Part shown: one piece after another, positions 4,978-41,639 of the stretch
Numbering within the stretch: position 1 is the stretch's first letter
Layout: the number at the start of each line of letters is the position of its first letter
Origin: Thermoplasmatales archaeon SW_10_69_26
GTDB taxonomy: Archaea > Thermoplasmatota > SW-10-69-26
Direction: 5' to 3'
DNA: 64,000 bases
Assembly (NCBI GenBank): GCA_003009755.1
Contig: PXUB01000001.1
Coordinates: 1-64,000, forward strand
Position numbers and translations under genes: made by a program
The notes under the pieces: model-generated
Database searches by the model: none
Told to the model about the DNA's origin: nothing
Seen by the model: the letters and a program-made list of their open reading frames with translations, nothing else

Positions 4978-6018
4978 GTGGCCCCCGAGGATCCGTCGTT
5001 CGCTCACGTCTGCATGGGCGGGACCTTCTCGCCGCTGCACCGAGGCCATCGAGCGCTGTTGGCGCGGGCCTTGACGATCGGCGAGCAGGTGTTCGTGGGA
5101 GTCACCAGCGGCGATCTGGCGCGGCGGGGCCGGGAGCGCAAGGTGCCCGCCGTCGAGGACCGCATCGCGGGCATCGAGGCCTTCCTAAGCGAGCGGTCCG
5201 CGCTGGATCGCGTCGAGGTCGCCCCGATCGAGGATCCGTTCGGGCGGGCGCTGGAGCCTCGCTTCGAGGCGATCGTCGTCAGCCCGGAGACCAGCGACAC
5301 GGCCGAGGCGATCAACGCCGAACGCCGCAAGCGAGATCTCGATCCCCTGGCCGTCGACGAGGTCCCGTTCGTGCTCGGCCTGGACGGCCAGCCGGTCAAC
5401 GGAACCCGCGTCGCCCGGGGCGAGATCGACCCCGAGGGCCTGCAGCCGCGATCGGTGCAGCTGGCGGTGGGATCGGCGAACCCGGTCAAGGTGGAGGCCA
5501 GCGAGCAGGTGTTCGGTCGCTTCGTCCCGACCGTGGACGCGTGGACCGTGGACGTCGAGACGGGCGTCAGCGAGCAGCCGCGCGACGCCGAGGGACCGAA
5601 GGGGGCAGCCACGCGGGCCCGCAACGCGCTGGCAGCCAGCGACGAGGCCGGCTTGGGCGTGGGCATCGAGGCCGCGCTCGTCGACGACGAGGCCAGCGGC
5701 GAGACGTTCGACGTGCAATACGCGGCGATCGCGGACGCCCAGGGCCGCGTGACGACCGGCGCCGGGCCGGGCTTCAGCTACCCGCCGGGCGTGCTGTCGG
5801 CGGTCGAGGAGGGGCGCACGATCGGCGAGGTGTTCGACGCGCTCGAGGACCGGGCCGGCGTCGGCCAGGCCGAGGGCGCGATCGGCGTCTTGACCGGCGG
5901 GGCGGCCACGCGCACCGAGCTGACCGAGTGGGCCGTGCTGAGCGCGCTGGTGCCGCGCCTGCAGCCGGACTGGTACCGGCCGCTGCCGGGCGAGGAGCTG
6001 GACCTCGACCTCGAGTAG
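4978..6018 (+). CDS. Fused phosphopantetheine adenylyltransferase / DUF84 (inosine/xanthosine triphosphatase)
   Basis: A 346-residue two-enzyme protein. Residues 8-155 form an archaeal phosphopantetheine adenylyltransferase of the nucleotidyltransferase fold: GGTFSPLHRGH gives the HxGH motif (His21, His24). It would make dephospho-CoA from ATP and 4'-phosphopantetheine. Residues 160-340 match the DUF84/YjjX family, which hydrolyses ITP/XTP: AVGSANPVKVEA at its start and GVGIEAAL, AAIAD and GPGFSYPP further on. The GTG at 4978 was chosen because the upstream in-frame extension is Ser/Pro-rich shadow sequence and adenylyltransferases start just before the GTF motif. The link between CoA synthesis and nucleotide-pool sanitation is not obvious. 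Confidence 0.88.
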   Translation: MAPEDPSFAHVCMGGTFSPLHRGHRALLARALTIGEQVFVGVTSGDLARRGRERKVPAVEDRIAGIEAFLSERSALDRVEVAPIEDPFGRALEPRFEAIVVSPETSDTAEAINAERRKRDLDPLAVDEVPFVLGLDGQPVNGTRVARGEIDPEGLQPRSVQLAVGSANPVKVEASEQVFGRFVPTVDAWTVDVETGVSEQPRDAEGPKGAATRARNALAASDEAGLGVGIEAALVDDEASGETFDVQYAAIADAQGRVTTGAGPGFSYPPGVLSAVEEGRTIGEVFDALEDRAGVGQAEGAIGVLTGGAATRTELTEWAVLSALVPRLQPDWYRPLPGEELDLDLE

Positions 6019-34824: not shown

Positions 34825-36060
34825 TCACCCGCTCGTGGCCCGCGGTCGGGGCCGGTCGGCCGCCAGACAGGCGCGCTCGGCGGCCTGCAGGCGGGGGGCG
34901 AGCCCGAGCGCGAGCGGGCGGGCGAGGTGGCGGCGGGCGCTGGGGTCGGCCTCGTGCCAGCGTGGGGGGCGCTTGCTGGTCTCGCCGGGCTGGCGCGTCC
35001 CGCAGCGGGGGCACCGGTAGCCGGCCTCGTGCCCGATCGAGCGCATGTGGCCCCCGCAGCCGGGACAGGCGGGCGCCTGGGTGCCCTCGGCGGGCACGTG
35101 GAACAGCTTCTCCAGGTTGACCTGGCGGCCGGCGTCCTTGAGCGATCCCAGCGCGAGCAGGCGGTCGCCGGGTTCCACGGCTCGCAAACCGGTCCGCAGG
35201 TCGCCGGTGGGCTCGAAGGCGAGCACGGTGCGCTCGGCCTCGCGGGGCGTGCGCGTGGCCAGGCGGACGTGGCCGCCCTCGAGCCGCTGGGGCTCGTCAG
35301 CGGCAACGAGCGGTTGCAGGCTGGCCGCCGCGAGGTGGTCGTCGCTGGCTTGGTTGGTGACGAAGGTATAGGCTTGCTCGATCGGTTCCTCGGCCAGGCG
35401 GGCCGCGCGGTCGGCGAGGTCGTCGGGCTCGCTGGCCCGCAGGCCGAGGAGGAGGGGGCCTGGGGTGCGGGGGGCGACGAGGGCATGGTCCTCGCGGGCG
35501 TCGTAGGCGTCGAAGACGGCCTCGTGGTGGGTGTCGAGTTCGCGGGCGTGGCGAGCGTTGATCGCTCGCGGCGTGCCCCGTGCCTTGGGGTGGCGGTAGG
35601 CGATCCGTGTGTAGGTGGCCGAGGGGCCGGGCCGCCAGGCGGCGGCGCACAGGCACCCGACCAGGCCGCGACCGGTGCCGGCGGTCCAGGTGGGCACGTC
35701 GGCGAGGGCCGAGCGGGCCTCGTCGAGGCCGACGCGTTCGCGTACGCCGCGCTCGTACCAGGCCGGGGCCGGCGGCTCGGAGAGGACGGCCAGGCCGGCG
35801 CCTTTGCCCTCGGCGATGCGGGCGTGGTCGTCGACGACGGCGGCCGCGGTCTCGAGCACCGTCTCGGGGTGGAGGTCCCTCGAGAGAGGGATCGCGACGG
35901 CGGCGTTGCCGCGCGTCTTCCAGGGGTTGTCGGGATCGAGGCGGACCAGACGCGGCCGGCCATCCAACGCGTCGGGGCCGAGCCGATCGGCGATGCAGGC
36001 GGCGGCGTAGGTGGTGCATCCCCCCTGGGGGCCGTCGGTGTCGTCCAGCGTCAACAGCAC
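34825..36060 (-). CDS. tiaS: tRNA-Ile2 2-agmatinylcytidine synthetase
   Basis: A 411-residue TiaS, the archaeal enzyme that uses agmatine and ATP to modify C34 of tRNA-Ile2 so it reads AUA. Signatures are LTLDDTDGPQGGCTTY at the N terminus, RLDPDNPWKTRGNAAV (about residue 40), GTGRGLVGCL (about 125), an OB-like region and a C-terminal zinc ribbon with CPGCGGHM and CPRCGTRQPG. The GTG at 36060 is 5 nt before the end of the receptor-kinase gene on the same strand, so the two may be co-transcribed. It is essential in most archaea. Confidence 0.93.
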   Translation of the reverse strand: MLLTLDDTDGPQGGCTTYAAACIADRLGPDALDGRPRLVRLDPDNPWKTRGNAAVAIPLSRDLHPETVLETAAAVVDDHARIAEGKGAGLAVLSEPPAPAWYERGVRERVGLDEARSALADVPTWTAGTGRGLVGCLCAAAWRPGPSATYTRIAYRHPKARGTPRAINARHARELDTHHEAVFDAYDAREDHALVAPRTPGPLLLGLRASEPDDLADRAARLAEEPIEQAYTFVTNQASDDHLAAASLQPLVAADEPQRLEGGHVRLATRTPREAERTVLAFEPTGDLRTGLRAVEPGDRLLALGSLKDAGRQVNLEKLFHVPAEGTQAPACPGCGGHMRSIGHEAGYRCPRCGTRQPGETSKRPPRWHEADPSARRHLARPLALGLAPRLQAAERACLAADRPRPRATSG

Positions 36061-36064
36061 CGGA

Positions 36065-39000
36065 TCAGCCTCCGGCCACGCGGTCGACGGTGCGGGAGCC
36101 GCCGGGGTCCAGCTGGTCGAGGGCGTCGGCGAAGGCGCTTGCGTCGGGGTAGCGGTCCTCGGGGTCGCGGGCCAGGGCCTTGGCGAGGACCTCGTTGACG
36201 GCGGCGGGGACGCCGTCGATCGGGAGCCGGACGTCGCGTTCGATCAGCTCCTCGGGGGGAGGCGTGGTGTCGGTCTGCAGGCCGAGGTGGTGCTCGCCGG
36301 TGAGGAGGTTGTAGACGAGGGCGCCGGCGGCGTAGACGTCGGCTTGGGGACCGGGCGGGTCGCCGAGGAGTTGTTCGGGCGCCATGTAGCGCGGCGTGCC
36401 GACGAAGGCGTCCTCCTGTCCGGGCGGTTCGTCGCGGCGGACGGCGACGCCGAAGTCGGTGATCTTGGCGGTCCCGTCGGGGGTGAGCAGGATGTTGGAG
36501 GGCTTGAGGTCGCGGTGCACGATGCCGGCCTCGTGGAGGGCAGCCAAGCCGTCGAGCACCTCGGCGGCCATCGGCAGGGCCTGTTTGGTCTCCATCGCCT
36601 GGTCGGTGCGGTCGGCGAGCGTGCCGCCCTCGATGTACTCCATGACGAGCAGCAGCCGGCCTTCCTCCTCGATGACGTCGTGCACGACGACGACGTTGCG
36701 GTGCTGGAGGTTGGCGGCGGTCTTGGCCTCGTGCAACAGGAGCTCGCGGGCGTCGGCGCCGACGTTCTCGAGGTCCTTGAGGACGACGTCGCGCTCGAGC
36801 ACGCTGTCCTCGGCGAGGTAGGTCGTGCCGAACCCGCCCTCGCCGAGGACGCGTTCGACGCGGAAACGGTCCACCTTGCGTGGCATGAAGCCGTGGGCAA
36901 CGGTGGCGCTGCCGTCGTCGGCGGCGACCGGCGAGGCGCTGGCGGGGCTCGTGGAGAACTCGGTGGGTCCGGTCCCGGTCCCCGTCTCCTCGCGGCGGCG
37001 GTGGTACCAGATGCCACCGGCGGCGGCGAGCCCGAGCAGTACGGCCAAGCCGAGGCCGCCGGCGAGGTAGGGGTTGTCGCTGGCGGCGCGTGTGGCGAGC
37101 GTCAGGGGGCTGGGCTCGGAGATGTCGAAGGTGCGCTGGACCTCTTCGCCGCTGGCGGGCGAGACGAGCGCGCGGTCGGGGTCGGCGGTCTCGGCGACGA
37201 TGGTGCCCGTGAACGAGCGGGGGGCCTCCGGCACGAACGAGAGCATCACGGTCCGGTTGGCGGGTTCGCCGGCGCGGAGGTTGACGTCCTGGACAGCCAA
37301 GGCCTGCGAGCCCGAGCGCAACGAGAACCGCAGGGAGACGTCGCCGGGCGGGTCGTCGCCGGTGAGGGCCAACTCGATCGTGCTCGTCGTGCCGGCCTCG
37401 AGGTCGGTGTCGGTGACGGTCCACGTGACGTGGGCCGGGGCTGGTCGGACGTCCAAGGCGAGGGGGGTCGGGTCGGAGCCGACCGGCGCCATCAGGATAG
37501 CATCCGAGCGGTCCTGGTCGGCTTCGACGAACAGCTGGCCCTGTTCGCGCGGTTGGAGCACGATCTCCTCGGGGCCGCCCGGCACGACGGGGGCGTTGGG
37601 TTCGACCGTCATCGTGCGGCCGATGCCGTTGGCGACGGTGATCTCGGCCAGCGAGCCGCGCGTGAAGGACAGCTGGGCGGGCACGGTGCAGACGTCGGCG
37701 GGGCAGTCGCCGCTGAACGTGGCCACGGTCTCGTTCCGCCAGGCCTGCTCGCTGGGGGAGAGCACGGTGCGTTGGCGGGTGGCGTTCAGGTCGCCGTCGG
37801 AGACGTGCAGCGTGACGTTGTAGACGCGGGGGGCCTGGCCGGGCAGCGTAAGCCACGCGCCGGTCTGGCCGCTGTCGTCGTCGACGGACCACCAGTAGGT
37901 CAGGTCCTCGTCGTCGGGATCGCTGGTCTCGTTGGCGGTCAGGGCCAAGCGACCGTCCTCGGTGGCCCGTTGCGTGATGCTGGGTTGAGGGGGGAGGTTG
38001 ATCTCCATCGTCCGCGAGGCGGTGACCTGGGAGGAGCCGTCGTCGACGGTGAGGTGGATGGTGTGGTTGCCGGAGGTGGTGAAGCGGTGGGTGACGGTGG
38101 AGCCTCGCTTGACCGGGCCCTCGTCGAAGCGCCAGGTGTAGGTGAGCGGGGAGCGGTCCGGGTCCTGGGACCCGCGGGCGTCGAAGACGTGGCCTTCGCC
38201 CTGCTGCCACGCGACGGTGAACTGGGCTTCGGGGGGTCGGTCCTTGCCCAGCATGCGGAGCTCGCCGTCGGGGCCGGCCCAGAGGACGCCGCCACCGTCG
38301 GCGATCGCGATGCCGGTCGGGATCTGCGAGCAGCCGGAGGGGGTCAGCGTCTTCGTCCACCGGGAGTCCAGCAACCGACGGTCCTGGTGGGGGTGGCCGA
38401 CGAGGGAGCGGATGACGGCCACGCCGCGCTCGGCCGAGCAGACGTCGGCGAGGTAGATGTCGCCGTTGGCGTCGACGGCGGGTTGGCCGAGGAGGGGGCC
38501 GAACACGTTGCCCAGTGACTTGATGTGGGCGCCGCCGAGCGTGACGATGTGGATGGACCCGCCGGCGTCGACGATGAACACGGGCTGGCTGCCGTCGGCG
38601 CCCCATCCGACGGTCGGGGCCGCGTAGATCTGGCCGTCGAGCTCGGAGCCGGGCCGTTCGGCGTCGCCGGTGCGCCAGGCGACGTCCCCGCTGGCTCGGT
38701 CCACGGCGACGACCTCTTCGTCCCCCATGACGAGGGCGATCGACGAACCGGGAGCCAGGGAGACGCCGCGCGGCGTGCAGTTGCAGTCGATGCGATCCTC
38801 GACGCTGAGCGAGCCGGCGGAGAGCTCGACGATGCCGCCCTCCTGGATGGCGACGATCGTGTCGTCGTTGTCGACGGCGACCGGGGGGCCCGGCGTGGGG
38901 CCCGGCGTCGAGGAGAGGGGCGGATCGTAGTTCGTCGGCTCCTGGAGGCTGCGCTCGTCGACGATGTCCCCCTGGGTGGTGACGGCCAGCACCGTCCAGG

Positions 39001-39856
39001 GCTCCCGGACGGTGTAGATCCGGCCGTCGGGGTCGACGACGGGGCCGGAGAGCAGCTCGCGGTCGCCGTCGATCTCGGTCTGCCAGGCCTCGGCGCGTTC
39101 CGGGTTGACGCCGCGGAGCTCGCCGTCGCCGGTGGCGGCGATGACCAAGCCCTCGGGCGTCGAGGCGGGCGGGAACGGGACCGAGGATCCCAGACGCAGT
39201 GGGGGGTCCCACAGCGGGTCACCGTCGGAGGTGAACCGGTAGGCGAGCCCGCTCCAAGTGATGGCGGTCACGTTGCCGTCCTCGTCGACGATCGGGTCGT
39301 GGAACGGCTGGTCGTCGGAGGAGCGGGCCGACCATCGCACGAGGTCGACCTGCTGGGGGCCGATGTTGAGCGATCGGCCGGAGTGCTGGGCGTCGGCGCC
39401 GTGCTGGGGCCAGGCGGGGCCGAGGCCGCCGGCGACGGGCTCGTCGGCGTGGACGAAGAAGATCGTGGAGCTGGAGCCGGTGATCTCGAGCTCGGTCGCG
39501 TTGTTGCCGGTGTCGTTGCGCGCGCTGTCGACGCTCACCGAGTGCAGCCCGGGTTGGGTCTGGGAGGGCAACGGGACGTCGATCGTGCCGGTCACGAGCG
39601 AGGAGCGGTCGGAGACGAGCGTGCGCGAGATCGAGGAGGCTTGCCGGCGGTCGTCGGGGTTCTCGACGCCGACGGTCACGTTGAGCCGGTCGACCGTCGT
39701 GTTGATCGTGAGCTGGACCTCGATCGTGGCGTCGGAGGGCCCGACGACGAGGGGCGTGGCCTGCATCTCGACGACCGCGACCTCGTCGGAGGACTGGGCC
39801 GCGGCCGGAGCGGAGAACAGCGTTCCTGCGGCCAAGAGGGCGAGGACCAACGTCAA
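36065..39856 (-). CDS. Receptor Ser/Thr protein kinase with extracellular propeller and PKD domains
   Basis: A 1263-residue membrane kinase. A signal peptide (about 1-22) is followed by an exported part of some 900 residues. This has a CARDB-like N-terminal domain, a PQQ-type beta-propeller (about 150-560; repeats such as GVLWAGPDGELRML and DGQIYAAPTVGW), a PKD-type beta sandwich (about 570-720) and two further Ig-like domains. One TM helix (about 930) precedes a cytoplasmic Hanks-type kinase (about 990-1263). The kinase has GEGGFGTTYLAED, VVLKDL with Lys, HRDLKPSNILL, TDFGVAV and TPRYMAPEQLLG, so it should be active. Bacterial PASTA-type kinases have the opposite order (kinase N-terminal). 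The start is a TTG. An FHA-domain regulator lies 1 kb upstream. Confidence 0.9.
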   Translation of the reverse strand: MTLVLALLAAGTLFSAPAAAQSSDEVAVVEMQATPLVVGPSDATIEVQLTINTTVDRLNVTVGVENPDDRRQASSISRTLVSDRSSLVTGTIDVPLPSQTQPGLHSVSVDSARNDTGNNATELEITGSSSTIFFVHADEPVAGGLGPAWPQHGADAQHSGRSLNIGPQQVDLVRWSARSSDDQPFHDPIVDEDGNVTAITWSGLAYRFTSDGDPLWDPPLRLGSSVPFPPASTPEGLVIAATGDGELRGVNPERAEAWQTEIDGDRELLSGPVVDPDGRIYTVREPWTVLAVTTQGDIVDERSLQEPTNYDPPLSSTPGPTPGPPVAVDNDDTIVAIQEGGIVELSAGSLSVEDRIDCNCTPRGVSLAPGSSIALVMGDEEVVAVDRASGDVAWRTGDAERPGSELDGQIYAAPTVGWGADGSQPVFIVDAGGSIHIVTLGGAHIKSLGNVFGPLLGQPAVDANGDIYLADVCSAERGVAVIRSLVGHPHQDRRLLDSRWTKTLTPSGCSQIPTGIAIADGGGVLWAGPDGELRMLGKDRPPEAQFTVAWQQGEGHVFDARGSQDPDRSPLTYTWRFDEGPVKRGSTVTHRFTTSGNHTIHLTVDDGSSQVTASRTMEINLPPQPSITQRATEDGRLALTANETSDPDDEDLTYWWSVDDDSGQTGAWLTLPGQAPRVYNVTLHVSDGDLNATRQRTVLSPSEQAWRNETVATFSGDCPADVCTVPAQLSFTRGSLAEITVANGIGRTMTVEPNAPVVPGGPEEIVLQPREQGQLFVEADQDRSDAILMAPVGSDPTPLALDVRPAPAHVTWTVTDTDLEAGTTSTIELALTGDDPPGDVSLRFSLRSGSQALAVQDVNLRAGEPANRTVMLSFVPEAPRSFTGTIVAETADPDRALVSPASGEEVQRTFDISEPSPLTLATRAASDNPYLAGGLGLAVLLGLAAAGGIWYHRRREETGTGTGPTEFSTSPASASPVAADDGSATVAHGFMPRKVDRFRVERVLGEGGFGTTYLAEDSVLERDVVLKDLENVGADARELLLHEAKTAANLQHRNVVVVHDVIEEEGRLLLVMEYIEGGTLADRTDQAMETKQALPMAAEVLDGLAALHEAGIVHRDLKPSNILLTPDGTAKITDFGVAVRRDEPPGQEDAFVGTPRYMAPEQLLGDPPGPQADVYAAGALVYNLLTGEHHLGLQTDTTPPPEELIERDVRLPIDGVPAAVNEVLAKALARDPEDRYPDASAFADALDQLDPGGSRTVDRVAGG

Positions 39857-40002
39857 GGTCGCCGCGCCGTGGCGAGCTCGTGCGCGCGGGTGCAGGATGG
39901 CTGTGCCCCTCCCAAGCCCATTCCGACGGGGAGGACGTAACGTTTGCGGTCCCGGCCTCCGGCTCTCGGGGCCTCAGGGGGCCCGCAGGGGCTCAGCCGT
40001 GG

Positions 40003-40315
40003 GAGAGGGAAGGGATGACCCGGCCCCACGACGGGACCCGCTGCCGGCACCCAGGCGAGCGCGAGCTCCCCAGGCCCCGGCAGCGGGGGGATGCACACTG
40101 TGCGTATCGTCGATGGGATGTGGGATGGGACGGGTCGGGAGCCGGGTGGGCTTGGTGCCCACCGCCGCGATGGGCGTGTTGTATTTCAAAGCCGTGAAAG
40201 CTGACGAGAGGGAACGCCAACAGCCGGTTGCACGGTCTTCGGACGTTCAGATCGGACGTTTCCGTCGACACGGGAACCCCGTTCCAAGCGACGTCCTTCA
40301 CGACGTAGCCCCCGA
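40003..40315. repeat. Tandem repeat copy 1
   Basis: Begins GAGAGGGAAGGGATG..CCGGCCCCACGAC, has an insertion of about 45 nt not present in copy 2, then runs ATGCACACTGTGCGTA.. through GGTGGGCTTGGTGCCCACC (a perfect 7-bp hairpin), TTGTATTTCAAAGCC and GTGAAAGCTGAC to ACGTAGCC. The best-conserved part, about 100 nt around the hairpin, is nearly identical to copy 2. The flanking parts have diverged. Confidence 0.7.
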
Positions 40316-40421
40316 CGACCGCGGGTCGATCGAGGGACGAGCTGCGACGCTGACGCCGGCGAGGAGCGGGAGCAAGCGCCTCCAGCTCCCCGACGAGAGG
40401 GGAACCTGCAAGCGTGGCCGT

Positions 40422-40679
40422 GAGAGGAGAAGGATGGCCCGGCCCCACGACGCGGAGGGATGCACTGTGCGTACCGTCGATGGGATGTGGGATGGGACGG
40501 GCCGGGAGCCGGGTGGGCTTGGTGCCCACCCCCGCGATGAGGGTGTTGTATTTCAAAGCCGTGAAAGCTGACAGCAGGATACGCCAACCGCCGGTTGCAA
40601 GGCTTGTCGACGTTCAGACGCGGCGTTTCCGCTGACAAGCGAACCCCGTTCCAGGCGGCCTCCTTGACGATGTAACCCG
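40422..40679. repeat. Tandem repeat copy 2
   Basis: The second copy lies about 420 nt after the first. It keeps the same hairpin (GGTGGGC, TTGGT, GCCCACC) and the same TTGTATTTCAAAGCCGTGAA block. High identity in the hairpin core and lower identity in the flanks suggest selection on a structure or on a DNA site. Confidence 0.7.
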
Positions 40680-40874
40680 GCTCAGCGGTGGGCCCATCTT
40701 CCACTCCGAGCGGTGGATCGCAGCCCGGGCACCGCCGATGCAAGGCGAGGTGGTTGGGGTCGCAGCGGGCCACGAAGCGGGCGAGCCACGCCCGTGGTTG
40801 CCCGATGCAGCTGCTCGTGAGGCTAGGCTATCGTCCATCGCTTCCGGGGCCTCTCCCCAGCCGACGAGGGGCCC

Positions 40875-41639
40875 TCAGGGGTTCCGGAAGAGGAGCAACG
40901 AGCGCCCGACGCCGATCACGTCGCCGTGGGTGAGCTCGACCTCGTCGCCGCCGCGCAGCTCCTGGTCCCAGTTGACGATGGTGCCGTTGAGGCTCTCGGC
41001 GTCGCGCAGGCGGAACGTGCCGCCTTCGTGGGTGAGGACGGCGTGCTTGCGCGAGATGAACAGGTCGTACTCGAGGGGGACGTCGACCTCCTCGCCGCCC
41101 ACCTGGCGTTCGCGGCCGACCAGCCACTCCATCGGTTCGGCCTTGCTCCGCAACGGGAACACGCGGCCCTCGCGGATCCCGCGGATGAGGATGAGCTGGG
41201 CGAGCGCGTCCTCGGTCTCGGGGGTCTCGGGCTCGGATTGCTGGACGCGCGTGCGGTCGGGCACGCCGCCGGCGGCGGACTCCATGGCGAGGTTGCCCAG
41301 CGTGCGGACCTCCTCGAGCACCATGAACAGGTGGTCCTCGCGGGCGTAGTACTCCTTCGTGTGGCTGCCTTCGCCCTGGGCGACGCGGGTCTCGACGAGG
41401 TCGACCTCCTCGAGCTTGTCGATGTGGCTGAGGATCGCTTGACGGGTGAGGGGGATCTCGCGGGTGTCGCTCTCGGCGTCCTTGGACGTCTCCTCGCGGT
41501 AGGCCTCGATCTCGCCCACGTTCTTCGGTGTGGTGAGCTGGCGGAGGATGTCGAGGCGTTGGCGGTTGCCGAGCGCGGAGAGGACCAGGGACAGGCGCTC
41601 GGTGTCCACCTTGCCACCGGGGGATTGGGGATCCGGCAT
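40875..41639 (-). CDS. Winged-helix regulator with FHA phosphothreonine-binding domain
   Basis: A 254-residue two-domain regulator. Residues 12-110 form an ArsR-type winged helix (LVLSALGNRQRLDILRQLT, TRQAILSHIDKLEEVDLVET). Residues 165-254 form an FHA domain with the signature GR (WLVGRERQ), SRKH (DLFISRKHAVL) and NG (LRDAESLNGTIVN), which binds phosphothreonine peptides. This is the natural output domain for a Ser/Thr kinase. Such a kinase lies next on the same strand across a 1-kb duplicated spacer. A likely model is kinase-dependent control of DNA binding or of partner docking. The ATG at 41639 was chosen because the upstream frame is Arg/Pro-rich. Confidence 0.9.
   Translation of the reverse strand: MPDPQSPGGKVDTERLSLVLSALGNRQRLDILRQLTTPKNVGEIEAYREETSKDAESDTREIPLTRQAILSHIDKLEEVDLVETRVAQGEGSHTKEYYAREDHLFMVLEEVRTLGNLAMESAAGGVPDRTRVQQSEPETPETEDALAQLILIRGIREGRVFPLRSKAEPMEWLVGRERQVGGEEVDVPLEYDLFISRKHAVLTHEGGTFRLRDAESLNGTIVNWDQELRGGDEVELTHGDVIGVGRSLLLFRNP

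Follow-up and report, generated by a model that had tools for sequence, protein, structure and literature searches.

A receptor Ser/Thr kinase and a winged-helix-FHA regulator encoded as a probable phospho-signalling pair in Thermoplasmatota

The window analysed here is a stretch of 64,000 nucleotides, positions 1 to 64,000 of contig PXUB01000001.1 from Thermoplasmatales archaeon SW_10_69_26 (assembly GCA_003009755.1). It contains a gene for a receptor Ser/Thr kinase of the Hanks type and, upstream on the same strand, a gene for a regulator that combines a winged helix (wHTH) with an FHA domain (Table 1). The two genes are co-directional and, because 1018 bp lie between them, a simple operon is not evident. 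The pair is flanked by the housekeeping genes TiaS, assigned by Pfam, and SRP54, assigned by sequence. At window positions 36060-36065 only a few bases separate the kinase stop codon from the start of TiaS downstream, and SRP54 follows on the same strand; it is possible that the kinase and these housekeeping genes are co-transcribed.

Read from a TTG start codon, the kinase comprises 1263 residues. Pfam matches were obtained for Pkinase (residues 999-1235, E 5e-48), PQQ_2 (175-396) and PKD (543-619), with PKD domains beginning at residue 543. The set of Hanks motifs is complete (GEGGFG, VVLK, E, HRDLKPSN, DFG and APE) and the protein meets the criteria for a Hanks-type kinase, i.e. the Gly loop, the VAIK Lys, HRD, DFG and APE within a Pkinase fold. 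Hydropathy revealed a signal-peptide-like N terminus and one transmembrane (TM) segment at about residue 931, and nothing else. The juxtamembrane segment is rich in threonine and serine. The start of the protein remains uncertain, since the open frame extends to 39973 without a further ATG, GTG or TTG and basic residues are encoded upstream of the TTG.

The regulator gave a Pfam match to FHA with an E value of 6e-13 and only a weak match to the ArsR-type HTH_20. Its AlphaFold2 model, with a mean pLDDT of 91, shows a winged helix, a long helix, a linker and a beta sandwich. The criteria for an FHA-family protein, namely the FHA fold with Arg, Ser and Asn in the binding loops, are met, though without binding data. 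By sequence and fold, the nearest solved FHA domains are those of GarA and OdhI; EmbR was matched too. A preliminary description, made from sequence alone, had proposed a 1263-residue kinase with an exported propeller/PKD part, one TM segment and an intact C-terminal Hanks domain, together with an upstream regulator on the same strand that joins a winged helix to an FHA domain. Both claims held, the first apart from the uncertain start codon and the second by Pfam and AlphaFold2. Its statement that the FHA domain reads Ser/Thr-kinase output is matched by the retained phosphothreonine-binding residues, again in the absence of binding data.

Table 1. Features of the kinase-regulator locus. Positions refer to the window.
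Feature	Position	Strand	Remarks
Receptor Ser/Thr (Hanks) kinase gene	36065..39856	-	1263 aa from TTG; ectodomain N-terminal and outside, kinase C-terminal; start codon uncertain
Catalytic kinase domain	36149..36862	-	GEGGFG, VVLK, HRDLKPSN, DFG, APE
Single transmembrane segment	37010..37066	-	Residues ~931-949, by hydropathy; followed by a Ser/Thr-rich juxtamembrane stretch
PKD domain of the kinase ectodomain	38000..38230	-	Pfam match
PQQ/BamB-type beta-propeller repeats of the kinase ectodomain	38669..39334	-	Pfam match
Signal-peptide-like N terminus of the kinase	39794..39856	-	Sequence and hydropathy
216-nt non-coding repeat, copy 1	40096..40311	-	Intergenic, between the two genes; G001 retains part of it at the orthologous site
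216-nt non-coding repeat, copy 2	40463..40678	-	86% identical to copy 1
wHTH-linker-FHA regulator gene	40875..41639	-	254 aa, ATG at 41639
FHA domain	40884..41201	-	R176, S196 and N218 of the phosphothreonine-binding site present
Codon of T130, conserved linker threonine	41250..41252	-	Predicted phosphorylation site and FHA ligand; phosphorylation inferred
ArsR-like winged helix and following helix	41304..41609	-	Predicted DNA binding and dimerisation

The intergenic region harbours two copies of a non-coding repeat. No further copy was found in the organism's own genome, and no Rfam family was detected in the window. A part of about 80 nt (76%) is present at the orthologous place of another genus (G001:C238). 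A promoter, a 5'UTR or a small RNA is conceivable, as suggested by the conserved core CTTTCACGGCyTTsAAATAC and a GGGC/GCCC hairpin. A 29-nt match to the repeat elsewhere in that genome (G001:C37) has the appearance of a coding stretch; it was not counted as a target of the regulator.

All five strong Hanks kinases of this genome have a wHTH-FHA gene beside them. Conversely, each of the five FHA genes above the curated Pfam cut-offs adjoins a kinase, one to one, and all five encode wHTH-FHA proteins. A genome-wide search with a family profile added two more wHTH-FHA genes without a kinase neighbour, both with a degenerate FHA site. The survey of linkage was carried out on ten genomes of the phylum Thermoplasmatota, comprising seven of the class (G000-G006) and three obtained from a scan of 390 Thermoplasmatota genomes. 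Regulators were collected by unbiased profile searches and were considered linked when a Hanks kinase was present within 4 kb. A kinase domain within this distance was detected for 35 of the 47 regulators, and a 36th is the G001 orthologue of the window regulator (78% identical), behind which the orthologous propeller kinase is present as its N terminus only, the contig ending there. The total of 36/47 compares with approximately one expected by chance; the estimate, 1.2, was computed on 37/48, which includes one extra regulator truncated at a contig edge. In the three genomes outside the class, which were held out and found only after the idea had been formed, 9/9 regulators are linked to a kinase. 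Linkage conserved in relatives, one of the two criteria for a dedicated kinase-regulator pair next to phosphotransfer with an effect on transcription, is thus met, and co-occurrence in related archaea, which the preliminary description had named as a check, was confirmed. Up to seven linked pairs were found per genome.

The linked pairs are arranged convergently in 19 cases, regulator-first in 10, kinase-first in 5 and divergently in 1. Since orientation varies, operon structure does not explain the linkage and co-transcription is not general. No partner was visible for 11 regulators and about 15 kinases, some of them at contig edges; the contigs of metagenome-assembled genomes (MAGs) are fragmented, and partners may hide at contig ends. 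The sequences are moreover related to each other, so that the counts for linkage, as well as those for the threonine described below, do not represent independent events. Beyond Thermoplasmatota the survey was limited to a pattern scan of GTDB contigs with a narrower regulator alignment, which returned only 11 loci, all of them relatives confirmed by tblastn and several matching genomes already in the survey. No relatives were found on plasmids. Two candidate groups were rejected as members: the weakly matching FHA proteins of G043 are not of the wHTH type, and an FHA protein of G046 is unlinked, lacks a wHTH and has zinc-ribbon-like CxxC motifs. The few public records among the relatives are of Thermoplasmata or Euryarchaeota MAGs from soda-lake sediment and groundwater, with some labels evidently wrong. 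At one locus (L015, ~5616-5710, G000:C19) the 3' part of the FHA gene enters a G-tract, where the final strands are lost, and the frame of the neighbouring kinase reads on across it; a frameshift or an assembly error is the likely cause.

The catalytic domain is located at or near the C terminus in 35/35 linked kinases, which extends the C-terminal placement already claimed for the window kinase to every linked one. Most of them display 6-10 hydrophobic segments before the catalytic domain as judged by hydropathy. A few resemble the window kinase in having a single TM segment and a large ectodomain; for one, hydropathy shows no TM segment. Pfam parts were recognized in a few of them and include PQQ, PKD, Kelch, NosD and HisKA_7TM-like domains, the last as the sensor of two kinases, as well as a receiver domain in one. 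The sensors therefore vary across pairs while the kinase-regulator core is constant. At L102 (G004:C36) and L082 (G003:C98) a receiver-domain match and a Hanks kinase share one open frame, and the G004 kinase is paired with a wHTH-FHA gene; some kinases may thus be driven by histidine kinases. The PP2C_2 profile gave no match in the seven genomes of the class (G000-G006), despite the many Hanks kinases, and no PP2C phosphatase was found adjacent to the pairs in the class.

The evolution of the two partners was compared by a mirror-tree analysis of the 31 complete pairs. The distances in the kinase-domain and regulator trees correlated with r=0.65, a value reached in 0/5000 free permutations and in 0/5000 permutations within genomes. 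True partners thus match better than random re-pairings within the same genome, as expected if they were duplicated as a module.

The Arg, Ser and Asn of the FHA site are intact in 34/35 assessable linked regulators as compared to 5/11 unlinked ones. The linker between the wHTH and FHA domains is variable save for one conserved threonine, T130 in the window regulator. When the linkers are counted without gaps from where the wHTH helix ends, 20/35 have a threonine at offset +14, whereas shuffled linkers gave a mean of 6.9 and a maximum of 13 in 20,000 trials. In the alignment, a threonine lies within two columns of this position in 39/39 regulators with an intact FHA site but in only 2/7 with a degenerate one (Fisher test, 1.5e-5). 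Most of the degenerate cases come from a single family and another stands apart in G236, so that they represent two or so independent losses and not seven. The linker threonine accompanies an intact FHA site, a rule that is new here.

Seven regulators of family f1 form an orphan subclade without a Hanks kinase neighbour, in which the FHA sites are mostly degenerate (L153:5892-6608, L154:5237-6166, three regulators of L096, L095 and L093). Within this subclade, one regulator precedes a PAS/GAF histidine kinase at a distance of 45 bp, and three form a cluster on a single contig. Conceivably, these regulators have become phospho-independent.

The closest counterpart in layout and logic is PknH-EmbR of M. 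tuberculosis, where a membrane Ser/Thr kinase and a winged-helix-FHA transcription factor are also encoded side by side. The FHA domain of EmbR is required for its interaction with, and phosphorylation by, PknH (PMC9239209, PMC4601284). Matches to Pfam and PDB profiles, together with the AlphaFold2 model, place the window regulator outside the EmbR (SARP-FHA) family. In EmbR, a SARP protein, an OmpR-type DNA-binding domain and then a BTAD precede the FHA, whereas the window regulator has an ArsR-like wHTH, a short linker and no BTAD, and the two align mainly over the FHA domain. EmbR is in addition the target of several kinases and has been reported to be unphosphorylated in vivo under normal growth, in contrast to the many one-to-one pairs per genome found here. 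PknH-type receptor kinases are usually described as having an N-terminal cytoplasmic kinase and a C-terminal external sensor, a criterion that the linked kinases, with their opposite domain order, do not meet.

Among archaea, a Hanks kinase that phosphorylates an FHA protein and alters promoter binding is represented by ST1565-ST0829 of Sulfolobus tokodaii and by ArnA/ArnC (PMC7472852, PMC6509490); promoter binding of ST0829 is reduced by ST1565 phosphorylation (PMC7472852). ArnA and ST0829 are members of a Thermoprotei family and have an N-terminal zinc finger (PMC6509490). The present regulators have a winged helix instead, so the criterion for the ArnA family (N-terminal zinc finger plus FHA) is not met, and unlike ST1565-ST0829 the present kinases and regulators are encoded adjacently and have multiplied as pairs. 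The GarA/OdhI proteins of the PknG/PknB systems, which have the closest FHA domains, carry a threonine outside the FHA fold that is phosphorylated, and an intramolecular FHA switch has been described (PMC8546545, PMC4601284). These proteins bind metabolic enzymes, lack a DNA-binding domain and have their phosphothreonine at the N terminus and not in a wHTH-FHA linker. The pairs also resemble two-component systems with 7TM histidine kinases, in which a dedicated sensor kinase and a DNA-binding regulator have expanded as cognate pairs, although the chemistry inferred here is that of Ser/Thr with an FHA reader and without histidine phosphorylation. By analogy, the present proteins plausibly work like EmbR and ArnA while standing outside both families. 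No description of archaeal wHTH-FHA/kinase pairs was found in the open-access literature searched, and most archaeal genomes analysed by 2019 lack FHA proteins (PMC6509490).

These data establish the architecture, the linkage, the co-diversification of the partners and the fact that linker threonine and FHA site vary together. The likely interpretation is a dedicated Ser/Thr phospho-signalling pair of one kinase and one regulator with a switch at the linker threonine. The preliminary description had likewise inferred a phospho-signalling pair; linkage supports this, while phosphorylation, phospho-dependent binding through the FHA domain, the effect on DNA, the ligand and the targets remain inferred. 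It had not included the expansion to multiple pairs, the conserved linker threonine or the mostly polytopic sensors (6-10 TM segments) of the other pairs. Since the linker threonine is kept where the FHA site is intact and mostly missing where it has degenerated, the data are most simply read as phosphorylation of this residue by the partner kinase and its binding by the FHA domain. In the proposed mechanism, the ectodomain would sense an external cue of unidentified nature, and the C-terminal Hanks kinase would autophosphorylate and then phosphorylate T130 in the linker of the partner encoded next to it. The FHA domain would bind phospho-T130 in the same chain or across the dimer, and this docking may rearrange the winged helices and thereby switch DNA binding. 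Within a class of Thermoplasmatota, copies of the module would have arisen and diverged with both genes kept together.

The most serious rival is a recruitment model, in which the main ligands of the FHA domain are threonines that the kinase has autophosphorylated on itself, for example in the juxtamembrane segment, so that the regulator is brought to the membrane and T130 is secondary or has another role. PknG recruits GarA and OdhI in this way via autophosphorylated N-terminal threonines (PMC8546545), and the juxtamembrane segment of the window kinase is indeed rich in threonine. Docking on the kinase and phosphorylation of the linker are compatible, as for GarA, and docking could come first. 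We nevertheless regard recruitment as the main role of the FHA domain as unlikely, for it offers no reason for the conservation of just one linker threonine or for the disappearance of this residue along with the FHA site.

Less probable still is a regulator that is independent of phosphorylation, where the FHA fold serves only for dimerisation or the locus is co-regulated without phospho-transfer. The orphan subclade, with its seven unlinked regulators, largely degenerate FHA sites and one neighbouring histidine kinase, speaks for this view and indicates that the wHTH-FHA architecture can persist without phosphothreonine binding. The linked regulators, however, almost all keep the three FHA residues, and their tree co-varies with that of the kinases, which makes this explanation very unlikely for them. 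Finally, the kinase might be a defence or promiscuous enzyme, its proximity to the regulator reflecting a genomic island and not a signalling pair. The kinase domain matches the PADLOC models PD-T4-6 and mad6, as any Hanks domain would, but these matches span the catalytic domain only, the wHTH-FHA partner is found again in many unrelated surroundings and in varied orientations, and the flanks of the window pair are of a housekeeping nature. This possibility is all but excluded.

Returning to the linker-threonine switch, a bolder reading, which we favour by a small margin only, is that a Ser/Thr equivalent of two-component signalling arose in the class, built from repeatedly duplicated and mutually specific pairs in which the phosphorylated linker threonine and the regulator's own FHA domain form the switch. 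A replacement of two-component systems by the pairs was considered and rejected, since classical response regulators are still present in this genome (17 matches). According to a review, bacterial genomes have few Ser/Thr kinases and these act pleiotropically, whereas a histidine kinase has a single partner (PMC4601284). The pattern described here is the opposite, even though two-component proteins are also present. The co-diversifying pairs follow one sequence rule, a linker threonine together with an intact FHA site, and the conservation of this one residue makes the proposed switch directly testable. Should the inferred chemistry be borne out, Ser/Thr phosphorylation can be organised into insulated pathways of one kinase and one regulator each.
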